Assembly (NCBI GenBank): GCA_003282485.1
Contig: QBZD01000003.1
Span: forward strand, 1 to 64,000
DNA length: 64,000 nt
Direction: 5' to 3'
Origin: Pelagibacteraceae bacterium AG-333-C14
Lineage (GTDB): Bacteria; Pseudomonadota; Alphaproteobacteria; Pelagibacterales; AG-422-B15
Shown here: piece after piece, positions 7,922 to 19,308 of the stretch
Position numbering within the stretch: the first letter of the stretch is position 1
Layout of the letters: each line of letters opens with the position of its first letter
Notes under the pieces: generated by a model
What the model was told of the DNA's origin: nothing
The model's input: only the letters and a program-made list of their open reading frames with translations
Databases searched by the model: none
Translations under genes and position numbers: made by a program

Positions 7922-8775
7922 TGCTTTGGCATTAATGCCTTTATTGATTTTCCACTGAGTGCTGTACTTATTTTTGCATATTGCCTAATTATTTTTAAAA
8001 TTAGAGGGTCATTTACTTCCTTATAAAATTCATTTCGTGAATAAAGATCTTCAAACCAAGTCAATACGTGTGGATATAATTTATGAAAAGGAAATCCAGA
8101 TATGTATAGTCGATAAGAGTAAATAAACCATGCCAGGTCGAGCATCGAAAGCTTGTCACCCATTAAATATTTCTGATTAGTTAGATGACCTTCAAATTTG
8201 TTATAACGTTCACAAAATCTAACCAAGGACAGCTTTACAGACTCATTTGTAATTCCTTCTTCACCGTAGGTCTCATAAAATGAGACCTCTTTCATCTTTA
8301 GTGTATCAAGTTCAGAATTAGATGATTTATAATTTTTAAATACTTCAAGTCCCTTGGAACTTTTCTTGCCTAAACCACCAAACATATAGCGATAAGCAAT
8401 GTTTCTAATATCTTCATGAAGATCATCTTCATCTTTAAGAAGATTGTTCATATTTTCTATTTCGGACTCGTCAACTAGGGGGTTTTGAGGATACTTTTTC
8501 TCAAGGTACATCAATATATCATTGCTCTCAATTTCAACATGCCCATCATCTACAAGCACTGGAATGAGCCCCTTAGGATTAATTCCTAAAAACCATTCTG
8601 TGTAATTTTTTCCTGCTGCAAGATTTACACTATGCGAAGTCCAGCTAATTTTTTTTAAATTAAGATATATTCGAAGTTTCTGTGAGCAAGAAGATGTTCT
8701 AAAATTGAGTAAGTGTAACCCCTTCCAATCTAATATCTCTTTTGTTTTAACCTGTTCACTTGGAATAGTTGTCAT
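7918..8775 (-). CDS. Glutathione S-transferase family protein
   Basis: LLNFRTSSCSQKLRIYLNLKKISWTSHSVNL...NPKGLIPVLVDDGHVEIESNDILMYLEKKYP; C-terminal helical domain with MGDKLSMLDLAWF. Confidence 0.88.
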   Translation of the reverse strand: MTTIPSEQVKTKEILDWKGLHLLNFRTSSCSQKLRIYLNLKKISWTSHSVNLAAGKNYTEWFLGINPKGLIPVLVDDGHVEIESNDILMYLEKKYPQNPLVDESEIENMNNLLKDEDDLHEDIRNIAYRYMFGGLGKKSSKGLEVFKNYKSSNSELDTLKMKEVSFYETYGEEGITNESVKLSLVRFCERYNKFEGHLTNQKYLMGDKLSMLDLAWFIYSYRLYISGFPFHKLYPHVLTWFEDLYSRNEFYKEVNDPLILKIIRQYAKISTALSGKSIKALMPKQ

Positions 8776-8942
8776 TTATTTTTTCCCTTATTATTTTGCT
8801 TTGTGACTAAATAAGCTAGCACCAATATCACAGCTGTACCTGCCATCATGGATATATCTATTGATAAACCAAAGCCCATTAGTATAAAGCCGGTTAATGC
8901 ACCAATAAAAAATACTCCTATTATTTGCAGCACATTCTTCAT
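8772..8942 (-). CDS. Small predicted membrane protein (56 aa), not in ORF track
   Basis: Reverse-strand ATG at 8942: MKNVLQIIGVFFIGALTGFILMGFGLSIDISMMAGTAVILVLAYLVTKQNNKGKNK*; ATGA overlap with the GST start. Confidence 0.6.
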   Translation of the reverse strand: MKNVLQIIGVFFIGALTGFILMGFGLSIDISMMAGTAVILVLAYLVTKQNNKGKNK

Positions 8943-8951
8943 AAATTAATA

Positions 8952-10556
8952 TTACTCATTTGTTTTCAACCTTGTTCTCTGAATAATTATAACAGAAAAT
9001 ATTGGGACCAAAAGAGTGAGAAGTGTTACAACAATTAGTAAAATGCCCAATTCAGAGTAATCTGCAACTGAAAGAATTTCATTTGTAATCTTGTCTTTTA
9101 CTTCCCTTGTGACCTCATAAATCTGGTTAAGGTATTTTGTAAACAATGAACTTGCGGATAGAGCAAGATTAGTAAAAGAGGCAAATACTGCGAAAAATGT
9201 CGCTTTAAGATGAGCGGGCGCATTTCTCGCAATCCAAGCAAGCAGTGGTATCATCGATACTTGCCCCAAAGGCGATTCAAGCGCAGTATTAAAAATAGCT
9301 ATGAAACGCGCATCAACTACATCATTTGTTAAGGAAGCTGTCCACTGATGAAATCCATAATACATACCAACGCTTGGTAAAAATAAAACTGCACCAGCAA
9401 TAGATAAAATAACAATTATTTTTGCAATCGAGTTATTTACCATAAACGGCCTTAAAACAATTATTCCCAGTAATGTTAGAAATGAAGCAAGAAAAGAAAG
9501 AACTGAAAAAAATTTTTCATCAAAACCTAAATTATCTATTTCAAACCAAGTCAAACCTGCACCAGGACCTGGCATTGCTCTAAAAATAAATATTATTATT
9601 GCAGTTCCTAAAATAGTTAGTCGCATTGATTCAGGTAACTCTCGCATTAACTTAGCCATCAAAAAGAAAATAATGCTTACTGATCCTACAAACACGATCT
9701 CTTGAGCATAAGGAAGATTAAAGCCACCTACAGTAAGAGTAAATATTACAAAAATTAGTGAGCCACCAAGTATCCACCAATCAACTTTTGTTTCCTCATT
9801 CTCTATCTTCTCTTCAACACCAGCATTTGATAATTTATTTCTTCTTTTGTTTTTAAGGTAAATTGAGAGAAATACACCTAGTACTGAAATTAAAGGGATG
9901 ATCAATGCAAAGAGATAAATATTTGCATATAGCATTATTTTTTCTTGCTCTGTTTCAGCTTCAACGCTACTAAAAATGATTATATTAATTAAAGAAACAA
10001 CAACAGTACCTCCAATGATTGCAAACCTTCCCAAAGTTTGCATTGTGGTATGCATATTTTTTATTAACTCAGGTGAATAAAGTTTGCCTTCTTCATCTAA
10101 ACTTGGAACAGCTTCAACAGTCATTGCATCAGCTACGACGTCTTGCACAACATATCCAATTGGTGCTAGCAATACACTGATCACATACCAGGTTTCAATA
10201 TTAAGGAATTGTGACATAAACCCTGTGTGGCCAATTAGCCCATACATAATGCCTAGGCTTATGGCGAGTAATGAAGCTCCTATATATACAAGATAATTTT
10301 TTCGCTCCCAAATCAAATCAACTAAATGACCTATTGGCATTTTTAAGGCCCACGGAATTCCAGCCCAAAAACCAAGGCCTGCAAGAAATGCAGCAGATAA
10401 GTTGAGATAGTCTTTGACAAAAAAAGTTCCAACTATTCCTGTTAGTCCAGCAACACCAGCAGCTAAGTAAATCATGAGTGGTGGCAAGTAACTTAGCTTA
10501 AACTGCCTTCCTAGGTCTATAAATGTGCTTTCGATGAAATGATATAACTTACTCAT
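8952..10556 (-). CDS. MFS-type transporter (folate/biopterin-transporter-like)
   Basis: 534 aa multi-TM protein; LPPLMIYLAAGVAGLTGIVGTFFVKDYLNLSAAFLAGLGFWAGIPWALKMPIGHLVD. Confidence 0.75.
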   Translation of the reverse strand: MSKLYHFIESTFIDLGRQFKLSYLPPLMIYLAAGVAGLTGIVGTFFVKDYLNLSAAFLAGLGFWAGIPWALKMPIGHLVDLIWERKNYLVYIGASLLAISLGIMYGLIGHTGFMSQFLNIETWYVISVLLAPIGYVVQDVVADAMTVEAVPSLDEEGKLYSPELIKNMHTTMQTLGRFAIIGGTVVVSLINIIIFSSVEAETEQEKIMLYANIYLFALIIPLISVLGVFLSIYLKNKRRNKLSNAGVEEKIENEETKVDWWILGGSLIFVIFTLTVGGFNLPYAQEIVFVGSVSIIFFLMAKLMRELPESMRLTILGTAIIIFIFRAMPGPGAGLTWFEIDNLGFDEKFFSVLSFLASFLTLLGIIVLRPFMVNNSIAKIIVILSIAGAVLFLPSVGMYYGFHQWTASLTNDVVDARFIAIFNTALESPLGQVSMIPLLAWIARNAPAHLKATFFAVFASFTNLALSASSLFTKYLNQIYEVTREVKDKITNEILSVADYSELGILLIVVTLLTLLVPIFSVIIIQRTRLKTNE

Positions 10557-10572
10557 GCACGAATTATATATT

Positions 10573-11133
10573 TTAAATTTGTTCTAACAACTGACTGTTA
10601 TTATTTTTTGGACTATTTATTTGTTTAGATATCTCATAAAAGTTAACTTGATCATCTTTTTTTCTTTCTATTTGATGCTTGCCCGATATCCATTCACCTA
10701 TCTGTTTTTCTTCTAACAACAATGGCTGACGATGATGAACTTGAGCAATATGTTGAGATGATTGACAAGTTACCACCGCGCATCCACTTGTTAAATTGTA
10801 AATTCCAGCAAAATAAATGAGTTCAGTCTTTATAGAATGAAAAAAAGGTTTTTTTTCGTTTTTTAATCTTTGCCATTCAATCCATCCATTTGCGACAAAA
10901 ACACATCGCATGGAACCTTTAAAAGACGGCTTCTCAAGCAACGTTTCGTGGCGGCAATTAATAAGTTTCATGTCCTCTTTCCATTTTGGAGAATAAGACC
11001 ACTTAATCATTTCAGGATTTGGTTTGAGTACTAGAACATCTTGTGATGGCGCAATATTAAATGATGCTGATACTTTAGTTTTAAATTTTTCTCTAACTGC
11101 TCCTGTATCTGAAAGTACGTAACGCCCACACAT
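10573..11133 (-). CDS. SOS response-associated peptidase (SRAP/YedK/HMCES family)
   Basis: MCGRYVLS N-terminus with catalytic Cys2; NCRHETLLEKPSFKGSMRCVFVANGWIEW; HHRQPLLL. Confidence 0.92.
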   Translation of the reverse strand: MCGRYVLSDTGAVREKFKTKVSASFNIAPSQDVLVLKPNPEMIKWSYSPKWKEDMKLINCRHETLLEKPSFKGSMRCVFVANGWIEWQRLKNEKKPFFHSIKTELIYFAGIYNLTSGCAVVTCQSSQHIAQVHHRQPLLLEEKQIGEWISGKHQIERKKDDQVNFYEISKQINSPKNNNSQLLEQI

Positions 11134-11675
11134 CAGACTAGTAAATCATTAATTAATTTTAATCTGTCTTGAGATTTCTTGCTTGAAGGAATAATTTCTA
11201 AAATTCGCCTATAAATTACTGCGGCACCTACGAGGTCATCTTGCATTAGGTAAATTTCGGCTAAACCGTCAAGTGCGCCAAAATGACGAGGCTCTAGATT
11301 TAACGTCTTTTCAATATCTGATATAGATTTGTTTAATTCACCTTTTAAAAAATAAACAGTAGCTCTTTTGTTCCACCCTTCAGCAAACTCTGGGCTTTGC
11401 TTGACAACTTTTGTGAATAATTCGATTGCATTATCTAGTTCTCCAACATCCATGGATTTATTGGCTTCATCAAATATAATTTGAGTTTCTTGGTTATCGG
11501 CTATAGACCATATATCCCAAATATTAAACAGAAGCTTACTAGCTTCCATATTATTTGTGCTTAAAAATAATTTATTAAAAAGTTCAATTAAGCGTTCATC
11601 TTTTTGATCCGCCTGAGCAAAATTAGAAAAAAGAATTATAAGGATAATTAACCTTTTCAATTTAAATCTCTCCAA
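11133..11675 (-). CDS. TPR-repeat protein with signal peptide
   Basis: ELDNAIELFTKVVKQSPEFAEGWNKRATVYFLKGELNKSISDIEKTLNLEP. Confidence 0.85.
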   Translation of the reverse strand: MERFKLKRLIILIILFSNFAQADQKDERLIELFNKLFLSTNNMEASKLLFNIWDIWSIADNQETQIIFDEANKSMDVGELDNAIELFTKVVKQSPEFAEGWNKRATVYFLKGELNKSISDIEKTLNLEPRHFGALDGLAEIYLMQDDLVGAAVIYRRILEIIPSSKKSQDRLKLINDLLV

Positions 11676-12973
11676 TATTTTTGGTATTTTTTACTGTTGG
11701 CGGAATCTTCTCTAAAATGATCAAATAAAGCTTTTGTAAGACTGAGTTTATTATTTACTTCTTCACCATTAGCCATTTTTAAAATTTGTCGATAGCACCA
11801 ATATACTTGAGCTGCTTTATTGTTAGACCTCATCAATGCAATCGGACTGTTTAGGCCGAATATCCAAGGTCCAAATTGAAGAATATTTTCATAAAGTGCA
11901 GCTGATTTTCTTTCACCACTTATCAATTCATTAACGATTTCAGGTTCGGAACATAAAGGTCTTCCAAGACCTATAACATCACAGGCCCCACTATTGAGTG
12001 CACTATTCATTCCATCGGCAGTGCGAAAACCTCCAGTTACAGCAAGAGGAATTGAGAGAAACTTCTTGATTTCCTCTGCATATTTCAAAAAATAAGCCTC
12101 TCGAACAAATGTGCTTCTTTGAGGTTTTATTGTTTTCATTTTTTTTAGGTTGAAAGAATCAATCTCTAAAGCTGCAAAATTTTCATATGTTCCGCCAGAA
12201 ATCTCAAGCAAGTCCAATGAAGTTGAATTTAGTAGTTTCGCAACTTCAATACTTTCTTCATGAGTAAAACCACCTTTTTGAAAATCTGATGAGTTTAATT
12301 TTATAGATATAGGGTAGTTATTTCCAACTTTTGCCCTTATCCCATCAATAATACACATCAACAATCTTGATCTATTTTCAATGCTGCCACCCCATTGATC
12401 AGTTCTATTATTAATATTTGGAGACAAAAATTCTGATAACAAATATCCATGCGCTGAGTGTAGTTGTACTCCAGTAAAACCAGTCTGTTTTGCAATTTCA
12501 GCAGCATTAATAAATCGATCAATGATATCTAGAATCTGAGAATGTGAGAGTTCCTCAGGAACTCCAAATTTCAAAACTCCACCTAACGTTGGCATAGGTT
12601 TAACTGAGGGAGCTACAGATTTTTTATTTATAGAATATGGGGTTTGACGCCCAGCATGACTTAGTTGCATCCATAATTGAGTATTATTTTGAGTCCCTGC
12701 TTTAGACCAATCTGCTAAAGATGCTAAACTTTCGTTACTTTGGTTACCCTCAATAATGACATTTCCAGCCCTTTCAATATAACGATGATCTACCTGTACA
12801 TTCCCAGTAATACAAATGCCTGTTCCACCTTTAGCCCATCTATCGTAGAGGTTGGCATGCTTCTTATTGGCGACTGCATCACTGTTAGCGAGGCCCTCAG
12901 TCATCGCTGATTTTAGAAACCTATTCTTTATCTCAACTCCACAAGGAAGCTCTAAATTCTCATTTATTTTCAT
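11657..12973 (-). CDS. NADH:flavin oxidoreductase (old yellow enzyme family)
   Basis: GVQLHSAHGYLLSEFLSPNINNRTDQWGGSIENRSRLL; CDVIGLGRPLCSEP. Confidence 0.92.
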   Translation of the reverse strand: MKINENLELPCGVEIKNRFLKSAMTEGLANSDAVANKKHANLYDRWAKGGTGICITGNVQVDHRYIERAGNVIIEGNQSNESLASLADWSKAGTQNNTQLWMQLSHAGRQTPYSINKKSVAPSVKPMPTLGGVLKFGVPEELSHSQILDIIDRFINAAEIAKQTGFTGVQLHSAHGYLLSEFLSPNINNRTDQWGGSIENRSRLLMCIIDGIRAKVGNNYPISIKLNSSDFQKGGFTHEESIEVAKLLNSTSLDLLEISGGTYENFAALEIDSFNLKKMKTIKPQRSTFVREAYFLKYAEEIKKFLSIPLAVTGGFRTADGMNSALNSGACDVIGLGRPLCSEPEIVNELISGERKSAALYENILQFGPWIFGLNSPIALMRSNNKAAQVYWCYRQILKMANGEEVNNKLSLTKALFDHFREDSANSKKYQKYWRDLN

Positions 12974-13141
12974 TTTTTTATCTTAGTAAATATAGAGTAA
13001 AAACAAATGACTTATAGAGTTTTATAGAAAAATGTTCTTTTAAACCCAGCCACGATGACAATATTTTTCAAACAACCCAGACTTAGTTGGATAAGTTACA
13101 TCCAATGCTGAGCTTGTTTGAGTATCGATTTATGATCCTTA

Positions 13142-13804
13142 TTACTTTGAAGGATCGGGCACCTTACGTAAATAAGGTTTTACAGTTTCCCACCCATCAG
13201 GATATATTTTTTCTGCATCCTCATTTTTAACTGCAGGAAGTATTACAACATCTTCTCCTTTTTGCCAATTAGCTGGAGTTGCAACTTTATGATTAGCTGT
13301 AAGTTGCATAGAATCAATTGCTCGTAATATTTCATGAAAATTCCTGCCAGTAGCCATCGGATATGTAAGATATAAACCAATTCTTTTATCTGGTCTTACA
13401 ACAAATATTGTACGAACAGTTTCATTGTCTACAGCAGTTCTACCCATTGATGATGTACCAGCATCACCTTCGAGCATATTAAAAAGTTTTGCAACTTTTA
13501 AATCTTCATCGGCAATGATTGGATAGGTTGGCCTGATACCTGAAACATCTTTAATATCGTCTAACCATTTTACATGATCTTCAACTCCATCAACACTCAG
13601 TCCAATTACTTTTACATTTCGTTTATCGAATTCATCTTTCATTCCAGCCAATACACCTAGTTCTGTCGTACAAACGGGTGTGAAATCCTTAGGGTGTGAA
13701 AACAACACCCCCCAACTATCTCCTAGCCATTCATGAAAAGATATGTCCCCTTCTGAAGTCTTAGCTTCAAAATCTGGACACATACTATTAATTTTTAAAG
13801 TCAT
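13142..13804 (-). CDS. 1-Cys-type peroxiredoxin (Prx6-like)
   Basis: WGVLFSHPKDFTPVCTTELG; GRNFHEILRAIDSMQLTANHKVATPANWQKGEDVVI. Confidence 0.93.
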   Translation of the reverse strand: MTLKINSMCPDFEAKTSEGDISFHEWLGDSWGVLFSHPKDFTPVCTTELGVLAGMKDEFDKRNVKVIGLSVDGVEDHVKWLDDIKDVSGIRPTYPIIADEDLKVAKLFNMLEGDAGTSSMGRTAVDNETVRTIFVVRPDKRIGLYLTYPMATGRNFHEILRAIDSMQLTANHKVATPANWQKGEDVVILPAVKNEDAEKIYPDGWETVKPYLRKVPDPSK

Positions 13805-13883
13805 TTAATTCCCCTTTATTAATTTAGAATTATTATAAACAAGATTGCTTTCTGTTCAATTTTTTATAAGATGTTGATTCAAA

Positions 13884-14576
13884 ATGATTTTTAAACAACT
13901 TTTTGACGAGAAATCATCTACTTACACGTATATCGTTGCAAGCGGTAAGGGTCGTGAAGCCTTAATAATTGATCCAGTAATAGAACATACATCAATTTAT
14001 ACTAATTTGCTAAATGACTTTGATTTAAGGTTGGTAAAAGTTATCGACACTCATATACACGCTGATCATATTTCTGCTATGGCAGAATTAAAAGAGAGAA
14101 CAAATTGTGAAACAGTTATGGGAGAGCACACGAAATCTGAAGTAGTTAGCTTGAAGGTAAAGGACAATGAAAAGATAAATATAGACGGAATTGTTTTACA
14201 AGCTCTTTATACTCCGGGACACACAGATGATTCATATTGTTTTACTATGAAAGATCGAATTTTCACTGGTGATACACTTTTGATTAATGGAACAGGAAGA
14301 ACCGATTTCCAAAATGGTAATTCCAAAGATGCTTATCATTCACTTTTCAAACGTTTATTGATACTTCCTGAAGAGACTTTAGTTTATCCAGCACATGACT
14401 ATAAAGGTAATAAGCACTCATCTATTGGCAATGAGAAGAAAAACAACCCGCGTCTTCAGGTAAACAGTGCTGAAGAGTATGCTGAGATAATGGATAATTT
14501 AAATTTGGCTAATCCTCAAATGATGGATATTGCCGTTCCTGCAAACTTAAATGGGCTGAAGTTGAGAAAAATTTAA
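13884..14576 (+). CDS. MBL-fold hydrolase, persulfide dioxygenase (ETHE1)-like
   Basis: DTHIHADHISAMAEL; LYTPGHTDDSYCF; GDTLLINGTGRTDFQNG; YPAHDYKG. Confidence 0.88.
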   Translation: MIFKQLFDEKSSTYTYIVASGKGREALIIDPVIEHTSIYTNLLNDFDLRLVKVIDTHIHADHISAMAELKERTNCETVMGEHTKSEVVSLKVKDNEKINIDGIVLQALYTPGHTDDSYCFTMKDRIFTGDTLLINGTGRTDFQNGNSKDAYHSLFKRLLILPEETLVYPAHDYKGNKHSSIGNEKKNNPRLQVNSAEEYAEIMDNLNLANPQMMDIAVPANLNGLKLRKI

Positions 14577-14590
14577 TACTTTAAATTAAA

Positions 14591-15577
14591 TTAGTTATTT
14601 TTTATAAAAACTTCAATATCATTTGCTAGCTGTTCAGGAATTTCCATGGGTGGCATATGTCCTACATTAGGATATGAAATTAATTCTACATTTGGAATTT
14701 GTTCTACAAAATGATCAATAAATTTTATATCAACAAGATTATCTTCTTCGCCATGAAGAATTAGTGATGGGACATTTATTTTTCTCAAATCTAATGGATT
14801 AGCGATGAAATTTGTTTCAAGATCTTCGGCAAGCATGCCAATAGCAACCCTGGTTCCTTCCATCAAAATTATATCATGAAATTGATCCACAAGTTCTTCT
14901 GTCACTATAGATTGATCATACACAGTCTGCGAGACTCCTTCTTTAACTAAAATTCTAGGTGTTAAAAATTCTAACAATCTAATAAATAATTTTGACTCAA
15001 TCAGCTCGAATGCTAAGGGAGGGGCATTAATCAATTGAAAATCGTTGAATTCTTGCTCATTAGCAAAAAATGCAGATCCAACAATAATTAATCCATTCAA
15101 TTGATCTATATTTCTTAATGCATACCTCCAAGCAATCATACCTCCCATGGAATGGCCAACTAAATAGAATTTATCAATTTCTAATATCTCAACGACCTCC
15201 TCTATCACTCTTTCATATGCCTCTTGATTATATAGATCTGAATTTACTGCTCCTGTTAAGCCATGAGCTGGAAGATCTAGAGAAATTATTCTGTATTCAT
15301 TACTTAAAAAGGGCACTAACGCCTCATAATTAAATAGTGATCCGTTAAATCCATGAACCATTACTAAGATCTTACCTTCTTTATTACCTTCATCTCTAAA
15401 ATGTATTTTAGAGCCATCAGCTAATTCAAGAAATTCAGATGCTCCAATGGCATGTTTTGAGATAATTTCACTTTTTGGAATATCAAAATAAAAAGAATTA
15501 TATAATCCAAATATCAATAAGATAAAAAAAATTATAGAAGTGATTTTGATCGTCTTAATAATATTTTTATATCTCAT
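14591..15577 (-). CDS. Alpha/beta hydrolase
   Basis: MVHGFNGSLFNYEALVPFL; LVGHSMGGMIAWRYAL; start likely at 15577 (MRYKN...) to limit overlap with the upstream gene. Confidence 0.88.
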   Translation of the reverse strand: MRYKNIIKTIKITSIIFFILLIFGLYNSFYFDIPKSEIISKHAIGASEFLELADGSKIHFRDEGNKEGKILVMVHGFNGSLFNYEALVPFLSNEYRIISLDLPAHGLTGAVNSDLYNQEAYERVIEEVVEILEIDKFYLVGHSMGGMIAWRYALRNIDQLNGLIIVGSAFFANEQEFNDFQLINAPPLAFELIESKLFIRLLEFLTPRILVKEGVSQTVYDQSIVTEELVDQFHDIILMEGTRVAIGMLAEDLETNFIANPLDLRKINVPSLILHGEEDNLVDIKFIDHFVEQIPNVELISYPNVGHMPPMEIPEQLANDIEVFIKNN

Positions 15578-16415
15578 AAGCTGCGATTGTTGTTCGATGT
15601 AAAAGTCTCTCTTGACCTTCATAGCCTCCTGTGGCCCTGTGCAAAACACTTCTGTTATCCCACATAATTAACATATCTTTTTTCCATTGGTGCTTATAAA
15701 TAAACTCTTCCTGACACTGCCAAGCACTTAATTCCATTAGTAGTTTCATCGCATCTTGGCTATTCATGCCATCAATACCAATGATGTAACCTATTGTACC
15801 ATAAATCCCCTCACGTTTTGTCTCAGGATGCTTCTTTATTATAGGATGTAATTGTTTTGAAAATGCTTCATCAGATGCACGTATATCCATACTTCGTCCC
15901 ATTTCTTTATCTTTGTCTCCATATCCTCCTCCTGGCGAATAAGGAACCAAAGCTGAATGAATTGCATTTTTACCCTCAAGTTTTTTTCTAAGCGAGGATG
16001 GTATTTTTTCTAATGCCATGTGTTGATTGGCAAATAAAGTATCGCCACCTTTAGTTGGAATAATTTTTCCATAAAGGCAGGTACCTGCTGGAGGGTTTTC
16101 TTGAAAACTCCAATCTGTATGCCAATTGTCCGCAAAAATTGGAACCTTCTCATCCGCTTCTCTTTTAACAGCAATAATATTTTTTCTACCTGGAATTGGC
16201 GCTATGAAAGGATCATTTCCAAATGAACCAAAGCAAAGAGTAAAGCGTTCAAGAGCATCATCATCTAAAGATTGATTTGGAAAGCTCAGCACGTGGTGCT
16301 CAAGCCACAAATCTCTTATATCTGAGATCTGACTCTCCAGGAGCTCTCTTGTCAAATCAATTCCTGAGATTTCAGCGCCACAAGCTTGATCAGAAATAGC
16401 CACATTAAAACTCAT
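15567..16415 (-). CDS. TauD/TfdA family Fe(II)/2-oxoglutarate dioxygenase
   Basis: NWHTDWSFQENPPAGTCLYG (HxD) and MLIMWDNRSVLHRATGGYEGQERLLHRTTI. Confidence 0.92.
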   Translation of the reverse strand: MSFNVAISDQACGAEISGIDLTRELLESQISDIRDLWLEHHVLSFPNQSLDDDALERFTLCFGSFGNDPFIAPIPGRKNIIAVKREADEKVPIFADNWHTDWSFQENPPAGTCLYGKIIPTKGGDTLFANQHMALEKIPSSLRKKLEGKNAIHSALVPYSPGGGYGDKDKEMGRSMDIRASDEAFSKQLHPIIKKHPETKREGIYGTIGYIIGIDGMNSQDAMKLLMELSAWQCQEEFIYKHQWKKDMLIMWDNRSVLHRATGGYEGQERLLHRTTIAAYEI

Positions 16416-16461: not shown

Positions 16462-16510
16462 TTTGGTGGGCCCACTAGGACTCGAACCTAGGACAACTCC
16501 GTTATGAGCG
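16462..16510 (-). repeat. 49-bp direct repeat: duplicated 3' part of tRNA(CAT), putative att site
   Basis: tttggtgggcccactaggactcgaacctaggacaactccgttatgagcg identical to 17166-17214; lacks the 5' half of the tRNA. Confidence 0.92.
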
Positions 16511-16615
16511 TGGCGTATGAACAACTATCAAATGTTTCCCACTAATTCTACGCCCTGTCTTTCTGCCTTTCTTATGGGAGATTATAGCATTCACTGAACA
16601 CTAAGTGAATCAAAA

Positions 16616-16632
16616 TCCCGCACAGATCCCGC
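16616..16632. repeat. 17-bp direct repeat TCCCGCACAGATCCCGC (copy 1)
   Basis: Identical to 17093-17109, both inside the segment bracketed by the tRNA repeats. Confidence 0.85.
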
Positions 16633-16705
16633 TCTGTATAGGGAATGTTTTTAGATTAAAGATCTTAATTATAAATGATAATACTTTGGAACATATAGTC
16701 CGTAA

Positions 16706-17032
16706 TCACATAATTTTTCCAGCACATTCGATTATAACATTAGTTACTTCTTCATTCTCAAAAAGTAAATCTAGCATGGCCTCTTCGTCATCGCCAACAC
16801 GCTCAACATCCAGCCCAAGTCTCATTGCTTCTTCTAAAGATAGTATTTGTGAAAGACCGTTTACGTAACAACCACAATACTCATAATGAATGCCAAGCGG
16901 TAGCTCTTCTAATGTTTCTTCCATGCATCCATTAAAAATCTCATCAAGAAAAATCTTACTAGAGATTTCAGTGTGCGCATTTTGTGGCAGGAAAAATAAG
17001 TATAAAATAGATACAATATGTATAATTTTCAT
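16706..17032 (-). CDS. Small secreted protein of unknown function (108 aa)
   Basis: Signal peptide MKIIHIVSILYLFFLPQNAHTEI followed by FNGCMEETLEELPLGIHYEYCGCYVNGLS...IIECAGKIM; only substantial ORF between the tRNA repeats. Confidence 0.65.
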   Translation of the reverse strand: MKIIHIVSILYLFFLPQNAHTEISSKIFLDEIFNGCMEETLEELPLGIHYEYCGCYVNGLSQILSLEEAMRLGLDVERVGDDEEAMLDLLFENEEVTNVIIECAGKIM

Positions 17033-17092
17033 TTGAAAATCTTATATCAGCTCTTCAAAAAAACAATCTGTAAATATATTTTATACATTTAG

Positions 17093-17109
17093 TCCCGCAC
17101 AGATCCCGC
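17093..17109. repeat. 17-bp direct repeat TCCCGCACAGATCCCGC (copy 2; part of 11-bp tandem TCCCGCACAGA/TCCCGCACAGC)
   Basis: Identical to 16616-16632. Confidence 0.85.
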
Positions 17110-17167
17110 ACAGCTTGATTTCGAAAGGTAGAAATGGGAATTATGACTCGTAAGTCATTGATTTATT

Positions 17168-17244
17168 TGGTGGGCCCACTAGGACTCGAACCTAGGACAA
17201 CTCCGTTATGAGCGGAGGGCTCTAACCAACTGAGCTATGGGCCC
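17168..17244 (-). tRNA. tRNA with anticodon CAT (probably Ile2/k2C-type rather than Met)
   Basis: GGGCCCATAGCTCAGTTGGTTAGAGCCCTCCGCTCATAACGGAGTTGTCCTAGGTTCGAGTCCTAGTGGGCCCACCA folds as a cloverleaf; loop CTCATAA; CCA encoded. Confidence 0.93.
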
Positions 17245-17292: not shown

Positions 17293-19308
17293 TTAGTTTT
17301 TATCTAAAAAGCTTTTAAGTAGTTTAGCTCTTGTAGGATGCTTTAATTTGCGTAAGGCTTTAGCTTCAATCTGTCTAATACGCTCTCTGGTAACAGAGAA
17401 CTGTTGACCCACTTCTTCTAAAGTATGATCTGAATTCATTCCAATCCCAAACCTCATTCTCAGTACGCGCTCCTCTCTTGGGGTAAGTGAAGAAAGTATC
17501 TTGGTAGTTGTTTGCCTTAAATTAGAATTTATCGCTGCATCTATTGGGATTACAGCATTATCATCTTGAATAAAATCGCCTAGGTGACTATCCTCTTCAT
17601 CTCCTACAGGGGTTTCAAGACTTACTGGTTCTTTTGCAATTTTTAATACTTTTCTTACTTTCTCAAGAGGCATATTTAATTTAATAGATATTTCTTCTGG
17701 AGTAGGTTCCCGACCAATTTCATTTAATAGAAGTCTCTGTGTTCTAACAATTTTATTAATCGTTTCAATCATATGGACAGGTATTCTAATAGTTCTAGCC
17801 TGATCCGCTATCGAGCGAGTAATAGCTTGCCTTATCCACCATGTGGCATAGGTTGAAAATTTATATCCTCTTCTGTACTCAAACTTATCAACAGCTTTCA
17901 TAAGTCCTATATTTCCCTCCTGAATAAGATCAAGAAACTGAAGGCCTCTATTTGTATATTTTTTGGCAATAGAAATTACTAATCTAAGATTGGCTTCAAT
18001 CATTTCCTTTTTTGCAATGCTTGATTCTCTCTCTCCTTTTTGAACATTACTAACAATTCTTTTAAATTCATTTAATGTTAAACCTATATTACTTGCTGAA
18101 GCCCTAACCTCGTTCATTATATTCTTGATACTATTTTTCTCTAACTTAACAAACTTTTCCCAACCCGACAGTCTAGTAATTTTTCTTAACCAGTATGGAT
18201 TATTCTCATTACCTACATATTTATCTAAGAACTCTTCGCGCGTGATCTTATGCTGCATTGCTAAGCGAAGTAATTTACCTTCTAGAGATACGACTTCTTT
18301 ATTAATTATGTAGAGTTTATTAATTAATTCCTCAATTTTATTTGTGTTAATTTGAAGACCCTTGATCAACTCAACAACAGCAATTTTTGATAATTGGTAA
18401 TTTTTTTCTGATCTTGCTGGAAATTCTCTCCCTTTTTCTTGAAAAGCGATTTTATCTTGTTGAAGCTTTTGTAACTTTTTGAAACTTTTATTTAATTTTT
18501 TAAATGTTTCTAGAATGATGGGTTTTAGCTCCTCTTCCATAATAGCAATAGAAACATTCAACTCATCATCGGAATCTTCATATTCTTCAACTGACTGATC
18601 CGCGGAGGTTTCTATCATAGGCTCAGTGTCATCTCCATAAGTTGCTGACTTCTTCTCAGCTTCTTTTCGCTTTCTAATTTCTTCTTTCTCCTCTTGTTCC
18701 TTTCTTTTTTTTGCTTCTTTAATTTTTTTACTAAGTTCTTTTTTATTTGGAGATTCTTCAAATAAAGATTCAAGATCTATAACTTCTCTTAGCGTAATTT
18801 TTTCATCAATGATATCATCTCTCCAATCAAGTATTGCTTTTAATGTTAATGGGCTTTCACATAAGCCAGAAATCATAGCTTCCTGTCCAGCCTCGATCCT
18901 TTTAGCAATTGCTATTTCTCCTTCACGTGAAAGAAGGTCAACTGTACCCATTTCCCTGAGATAGAGTTTTACAGGGTCATCTGTTTTTTCTGTTCCTGTT
19001 TTAGCTCCAGAAGAATCTTCATCTTTATCATCATCATTATCCGAGTCATCTGAATCGATAATATCAAATCCTGCCTGTGACAACTTAGTTGTATACTGTT
19101 CAATTTGTTCAGAAGTAAATTTATCATCTGGAAATGATTTTTTTATCAATTCATTTGTTAGATATCCGTCTTTCTTACCCTGCTTGATTAACTTCTTTAT
19201 AATAGATTTTTCTAAATCTAATACAGGTCCATCCTGATCGAGTGGTTGAGACGTATTAGTCTCTAATACTTGCTTTACTTGCTTTTTTTTTCTGCCGCGC
19301 TTTTTCAT
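17293..19308 (-). CDS. rpoD: RNA polymerase primary sigma factor RpoD
   Basis: [60 protein letters not shown]-terminal region 4 present. Confidence 0.98.

Follow-up and report, generated by a model that had tools for sequence, protein, structure and literature searches.

Integrase-less gene cassettes at tRNA genes of SAR11 bacteria, probably moved in trans by helper integrases

Introduction

SAR11 bacteria (Pelagibacterales) are among the most abundant bacteria of the sea and possess a streamlined genome, and the route by which they gain genes is an open question. This question is raised by a single tRNA gene of the SAR11 genome studied here: within the window (i.e., the whole stretch of 64,000 nucleotides that was analysed) a short segment is enclosed by two copies of a tRNA 3' part, which an earlier note on the same DNA had attributed either to a minimal element mobilised in trans or to a decayed remnant. 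How did this segment enter the tRNA gene, and how may elements of its kind move when no integrase is encoded within them?

The element in the window

Repeat search of the window identified a 49-nt exact direct repeat (16462-16510 and 17166-17214, offset 704), as the earlier note had reported, and an exact 49-mer is not expected to occur twice by chance in 64 kb. An intact minus-strand tRNA(CAT) is called by both ARAGORN and Rfam (17168-17244), which bears out the claim that the repeat is the tRNA's 3' segment; it begins two bases before the 7-nt anticodon loop (CTCATAA), on its 5' side, and ends with two A beyond the encoded CCA. The tRNA is neighboured by rpoD (17293-19308) on one side and by a TauD-like gene (15567-16415) on the other, both names being read from the sequence and not from a database match. 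ARAGORN assigned the tRNA as tRNA-Met; it may instead be a lysidine tRNA-Ile(CAU), because the genus possesses another tRNA-Met(CAT), adjoining an mnmA-like gene. The features of the locus are as follows.

17168..17244, minus strand: target tRNA(CAT), intact, its 3' half being element-side sequence after the proposed insertion (ARAGORN, Rfam)
17166..17214, minus strand: proximal 49-bp repeat, putative att site on the tRNA side, anticodon loop through CCA (exact direct repeat)
17112..17167, minus strand: left-end spacer, conserved and common to other cassettes, containing the ATGACTCGTAAGTCAT palindrome and TTTCGAAA (alignment; profile)
17093..17111, minus strand: tRNA-proximal arm-type repeat pair GTGCGGGATCTGTGCGGGA, two units, period 11 (left-end geometry conserved in 18 elements)
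16706..17032, minus strand: cargo gene, encoding a protein of 108 aa that is predicted to be secreted and has no relative elsewhere in the genus
16616..16634, minus strand: distal arm-type repeat pair GAGCGGGATCTGTGCGGGA, unit as in the proximal pair
16511..17167, no strand assigned: inserted cassette, 657 bp (interval separating the two tRNA 3' copies)
16462..16510, minus strand: distal 49-bp repeat, putative far-side att site, i.e., the displaced original tRNA 3' part (exact direct repeat)

The 657-bp interior (16511-17167) holds one ORF of 108 aa and no integrase, and the window ORFs agree with the earlier note also in that the encoded protein starts with an apparent signal peptide. Neither Pfam nor PHROG gave a match for this protein, and a search of 44 other genomes of the genus revealed no relative. 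As its cargo hence has no second copy in the genus, the mobility of the window element itself is inferred from its relatives. The insertion looks recent, since all 49 bases of the distal copy agree with the tRNA. The duplicated GC-rich repeats mentioned in the earlier note are present (a 17-bp repeat, TCCCGCACAGATCCCGC, was found by repeat search at 16616 and 17093), but they are not incidental, being the halves of a paired end structure with 2x11 bp per end. The palindrome ATGACTCGTAAGTCAT (17143-17158) lies ten bases from the CCA, and a similar one is found in most left ends at tRNA-CAT.

Occupancy of the tRNA sites

The comparison of the tRNA junction in relatives, as proposed in the earlier note, was carried out with orthologous sites from the genus, and those with intact tRNA and downstream sequence (34) were counted. 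Twelve of these 34 sites hold 15 complete elements of 146-1301 bp; displaced tRNA copies were furthermore found at two broken-contig sites (G009 and G064) beyond the 34. In four relatives (G036, G026, G024 and G065) the site is empty at the CCA, which is directly adjoined by the sequence lying beyond the window's distal repeat, i.e., the window's right flank (89.2% identity over 888 bp in G036). The closest relative (G033, rpoD 91.1%) carries a different, 542-bp element at the orthologous site. The segment is therefore not an identical possession of all relatives, and with the tRNA restored, a far end comprising the 3' part only and unoccupied sites in relatives, the att geometry of a tyrosine recombinase suggested earlier was substantiated. 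Occupancy also differs between close relatives, as G001 possesses two tandem elements and G060 none, though their rpoD genes are 97.1% identical. Tandem arrays end in tRNA 3' copies whose identity begins at the anticodon loop, and successive insertions at one site, marked by repeated tRNA ends, were found at five loci (L022, L023, L040, L047 and L090).

A second hotspot is tRNA-Lys(TTT), which is occupied in G032 (two elements in tandem), G061 and G029, and the window's own genome carries a degraded tRNA-Lys element (contig C38). A profile of the left end identified 15 places in 44 genomes at E < 0.002, all of them at tRNA(CAT) or tRNA-Lys(TTT), the next match being weak (G021:C4, E=0.007); in the ten remaining genomes of the family it gave no match at E < 0.001. 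That many genomes share the structure, and that the elements differ among genomes, speaks against an artefact of binning or assembly.

Across all sites, the complete elements are between 146 bp (no ORF) and 1542 bp long, most of them with a single gene. Their cargo includes a TylF-like methyltransferase, an FkbM methyltransferase and a 4HBT thioesterase, next to several predicted lipoproteins or secreted proteins. One cassette-borne family of secreted proteins combines a variable N-terminal with a conserved C-terminal part and occurs in 5 of 44 genomes, every match residing inside cassette arrays. Profile searches of this family returned no informative fold or phage relative, and its structure model (mean pLDDT 44.7) was too poor for use. 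With regard to a possible benefit for the host, it may be speculated that the cassettes vary the cell surface, as predicted secreted proteins and lipoproteins make up a large share of the cargo; to connect secreted cargo with phage resistance would likewise be speculation.

Paired repeats at the element ends

The ends of 15 elements were analysed for a 9-mer that recurs at period 11 within the first 110 bp, one mismatch being tolerated. Such a repeat is present at 11 of 15 left ends, as compared to a mean of 0.18 in shuffles and to 1 of 85 interior windows that served as control. The left-end repeat unit recurs near the other end of the same element: none of 200,000 permutations matched left to right repeats as well as the real pairing did, and P=6e-4 was obtained for a subset of eight elements selected so as to reduce common ancestry, values which are indicative only, as element lists and anchors were set after the sequences had been inspected. 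Measured from the CCA, the left anchor is found at 27, 49-50 or 60-61 bp, corresponding to steps of 11 or 22 bp; measured from the distal tRNA copy, the right anchor is mostly found at 85-87 bp. The repeat types include GTGCGGGATCT, GCAGTCATTGT, GCAGGCCATCT and TCGTCATCTGG; right arms are weak or mismatched in L090K_e1, L024_e1 and L031_e1. Judged by sequence, the paired 2x11-bp repeats look like integrase arm sites, to which an integrase would bind.

In line with this, of 398 Pelagibacterales genomes 6 contain the strict motif GTGCGGGATNTGTGCGGGA, in each case at left ends of these cassettes; it also occurs in five IMG/VR contigs, in at least two of which it lies beside integrase genes. In one of these contigs (L131) the motif precedes, by ~45 bp, an integrase gene that matches Arm-DNA-bind_4 weakly; in another (L134) it lies ~100 bp past the 3' end of an integrase gene, and in L133 and L135 inspection of the sequence revealed integrase-like ORFs, too.

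Further loci may be mentioned with regard to such repeats. In the near-identical thioesterase cassettes L046 and L085 most differences fall into the spacer of 45-56 bp that separates the CCA from the arm repeats; this spacer was exchanged, with an 11-bp change in length. In L136 (G033:C1:100500-120000, 8681-16341) period-11 repeats GGTGTAAATATGGTGTAAAG adjoin an Arm-DNA-bind_3 integrase and a primase-like protein (AEP-TOTE, DUF5906); no tRNA was found nearby.

Apparent absence of a resident integrase at the focal tRNAs

Neither the window element nor any of 20 other complete elements contains an integrase. Within the genus, PF00589 detects essentially XerC and XerD; used alone it is an incomplete test which misses divergent SAR11 integrases, and PHROG 1 (phrog_1) was used in addition. 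The latter adds a few more integrases, none of which resides at tRNA(CAT) or tRNA-Lys, so that the search for integrases in relatives at the same tRNA, as the earlier note had advised, came back empty for both focal tRNAs with both profiles. The evidence against a resident integrase at these two tRNAs is strong but not exhaustive, given the gaps of PF00589 and the incompleteness of the genomes, owing to which one could be missed. XerC and XerD do not possess arm-binding domains and act at dif sites, and for these reasons they are unlikely to be the mover.

Divergent integrases were observed elsewhere in the genus. A 401-aa integrase gene lies directly upstream of tRNA-Leu(CAA) (L243, G065:C5, 8016-9419), and an element beside tRNA-Gly(GCC) (L138, G008:C14, 3195-8965) encodes two integrases, one of 193 aa that PF00589 detects and a divergent one of 439 aa that it misses, together with a Rep-like protein matching REP_ORF2-G2P weakly.

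The search for a helper was extended to phages. Pattern scans of IMG/VR found no helper combining GTGCGGGAT-type arms with the window's tRNA core, no match to the TCGTCATCTGRTCGTCATT arm and none to the tRNA-CAT 3' part (two patterns) or the tRNA-Lys 3' part (one pattern). Near the integrases of the pelagiphages HTVC011P and HTVC019P no matching arm unit was seen by eye. When element DNA was compared with phage records, tRNA genes were what matched among the matches listed, and the left end of the cassettes alone gave marginal matches only.

Movement between species and loss of the integrase

Two integrase-less families have spread between species. G019 and G005, the rpoD genes of which are 79.8% identical, share a 739-bp FkbM cassette at 98.4% identity; for the thioesterase cassette common to G004 and G066 (rpoD 81.8%) the identity is 97.7% over 708 bp. 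The FkbM cassette moved despite having no recognisable arms, which the helper model leaves unexplained. Shared cassettes sit beside unrelated neighbours.

Movement after integrase loss is clearest, on the sequences compared, at a third tRNA, i.e., the tRNA-Met(CAT) near the mnmA-like gene. Here, G065 carries a parent-type island with integrase (L244) of 5.6 kb, which is bounded by tRNA 3' copies and has 2x11-bp repeats at both ends. Its integrase (459 aa) matches Arm-DNA-bind_3 (E 5.5e-8) and, below threshold, PF00589, and its cargo consists of small secreted proteins, one of which is 47% identical over 74 aa to the cargo of a micro-cassette at a focal site. G028 and G035 possess a 1,212-bp form that retains a 95-aa integrase stub (84% identical to the integrase N-terminus over 82 aa), and in G004 there is a 1,183-bp form in which another internal stretch is deleted. 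The repeat positions of these derivatives equal those of the G065 island within one base. By sequence comparison the two integrase deletions are independent, as neither is derivable from the other. The three forms are 98.4-99.4% identical, as against 87.5-92.1% for both flanks; for the deletion form shared by G028 and G035 the values are 99.0% and 91-92%, from which it follows that this form moved after the integrase had been lost.

These data bear directly on the view that the elements are immobile, decayed remnants of larger integrase-bearing islands which inserted once and then eroded in place. The integrase stubs document that deletion from larger islands does occur, the element in G028 and the tRNA-Lys element of the window's own genome have no distal fragment, and the distal copy in G033 differs at 7 of 34 bases, all of which would fit erosion. 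Yet the G028/G035 form was displaced after integrase loss, the FkbM and thioesterase cassettes moved as well, and the 11-bp-step arm spacing was kept in integrase-less elements. Decay in place is thus already disfavoured and considered unlikely, and of the two origins proposed in the earlier note mobilisation in trans is the better supported one, since integrase-less elements of this kind have moved between species.

Movement could also have been achieved in cis by accretion, whereby a complete island integrates beside a cassette at their common tRNA target and both leave and are transferred as one unit. Elements in tandem that share att sites are indeed present, and accretion of cis-mobilisable elements (CIMEs) with ICEs or IMEs has been described (PMC5704250). 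As neither focal tRNA showed a composite of which one member carries an integrase, and shared cassettes have unrelated neighbours, this route is judged quite improbable. Still less credit is given to ordinary homologous recombination of imported DNA, with tRNA and displaced copies serving as short homology and no site-specific recombinase involved. Each cassette is indeed flanked by 47-77 nt of identity, and the armless FkbM cassette would be accommodated. Directly outside both ends, however, identity is at most 92% in every shared case examined except the G004/G025 flank (a close pair), and neither the paired, quantised end repeats nor the entry into empty sites with one tRNA copy is explained, which renders this account highly improbable.

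Proposed mechanism

The reading preferred here, which we regard as probable, is that of att-bearing mini-cassettes at tRNA(CAT) and tRNA-Lys which are moved by helper integrases in trans. The 657-bp cassette would have been inserted into the 3' part of tRNA(CAT) by a tyrosine-recombinase-type reaction, the crossover most likely occurring in the 7-nt anticodon loop, as suggested by the point where identity starts. Thereby the tRNA would have received a new 3' half from the cassette, and its former 3' half would now mark the far end. The layout appears to be that of a complete attP, with a core and paired 2x11-bp putative arm sites on both sides, one secreted-protein gene taking the place of an integrase. 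The window cassette would belong to a genus-wide set at tRNA(CAT) and tRNA-Lys, some of whose members are in tandem, on which helper integrases would act in trans. As the family at the third tRNA suggests, islands with an integrase may give rise to such cassettes when the integrase is deleted. Site-specific geometry, empty and alternately occupied sites, pairing of the arms and absence of an integrase from the cassettes are observed, and so are the spread of two integrase-less families and the two integrase deletions in a third; trans action and the identity of the helpers, i.e., the step from moved to helper-moved, we infer.

Relation to known systems

Gene cassettes with tRNA direct repeats, termed additive flexible genomic islands, have been reported for Ca. 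Actinomarinales (PMC7771536) and Methylophilaceae (PMC10872708), in the latter from 330 bp upward. According to the accessible portions of these papers, such islands likewise represent small additions at tRNA genes of streamlined aquatic hosts, with partial-tRNA repeats marking the insertions, and this hallmark of successive insertions marked by repeated tRNA ends is present in SAR11. The class of cassette is hence not new. Single-gene units, however, are the rule in SAR11 as opposed to those islands, and the same portions of both papers describe neither paired, quantised end repeats (i.e., paired arm sites) nor measured integrase loss followed by spread, nor an origin from integrase-bearing islands.

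CIMEs, i.e., decayed ICEs or IMEs moved in cis (PMC5704250), resemble the SAR11 cassettes in having lost integration and transfer genes, in retaining both att sites and in forming tandem arrays, but at the SAR11 focal sites neither a conjugative parent nor an integrase-bearing neighbour was seen. Tycheposons and marine phage satellites are marine, tRNA-targeted and cargo-carrying as well and, as is proposed for the SAR11 cassettes, helper-dependent. Tycheposons, though, comprise 4-200 kb (as quoted in PMC10872708), whereas the SAR11 cassettes comprise 0.15-1.6 kb and are devoid of a recombinase, and phage satellites of the PICI or PICMI type bring their own integrase, replication or packaging genes, while the window element holds a single short ORF. 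Integron cassettes and CALIN arrays, the latter recombinase-free and movable in trans (PMC11389934), share with the SAR11 cassettes a mostly single-gene, recombinase-free, tandem and putatively trans-movable organisation, but the proposed SAR11 recombination sites are tRNA 3' halves with putative arm sites instead of attC, and no integron integrase is present. MITE-type elements, too, are non-autonomous internal-deletion derivatives which keep only the helper-recognised ends; the SAR11 cassettes differ from them in their proposed site-specific tyrosine recombination into tRNA genes and in the retention of a cargo gene.

Implications for SAR11

A wider reading is possible, albeit held tentatively: SAR11 may maintain an integron-like cassette economy without a resident integrase, in which tRNA 3' halves would serve as recombination sites for mostly single-gene, tandemly arranged surface-protein cassettes, and several helper integrases of phages or rare islands, differing in arm specificity, would act in trans. 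If the helper model is true, accessory genes would reach these tRNA sites as minimal, recombinase-free cassettes using the integrases of other elements, and each arm-repeat type would be a searchable tag for its helper integrase, whereby a hidden route of gene transfer would become directly testable.
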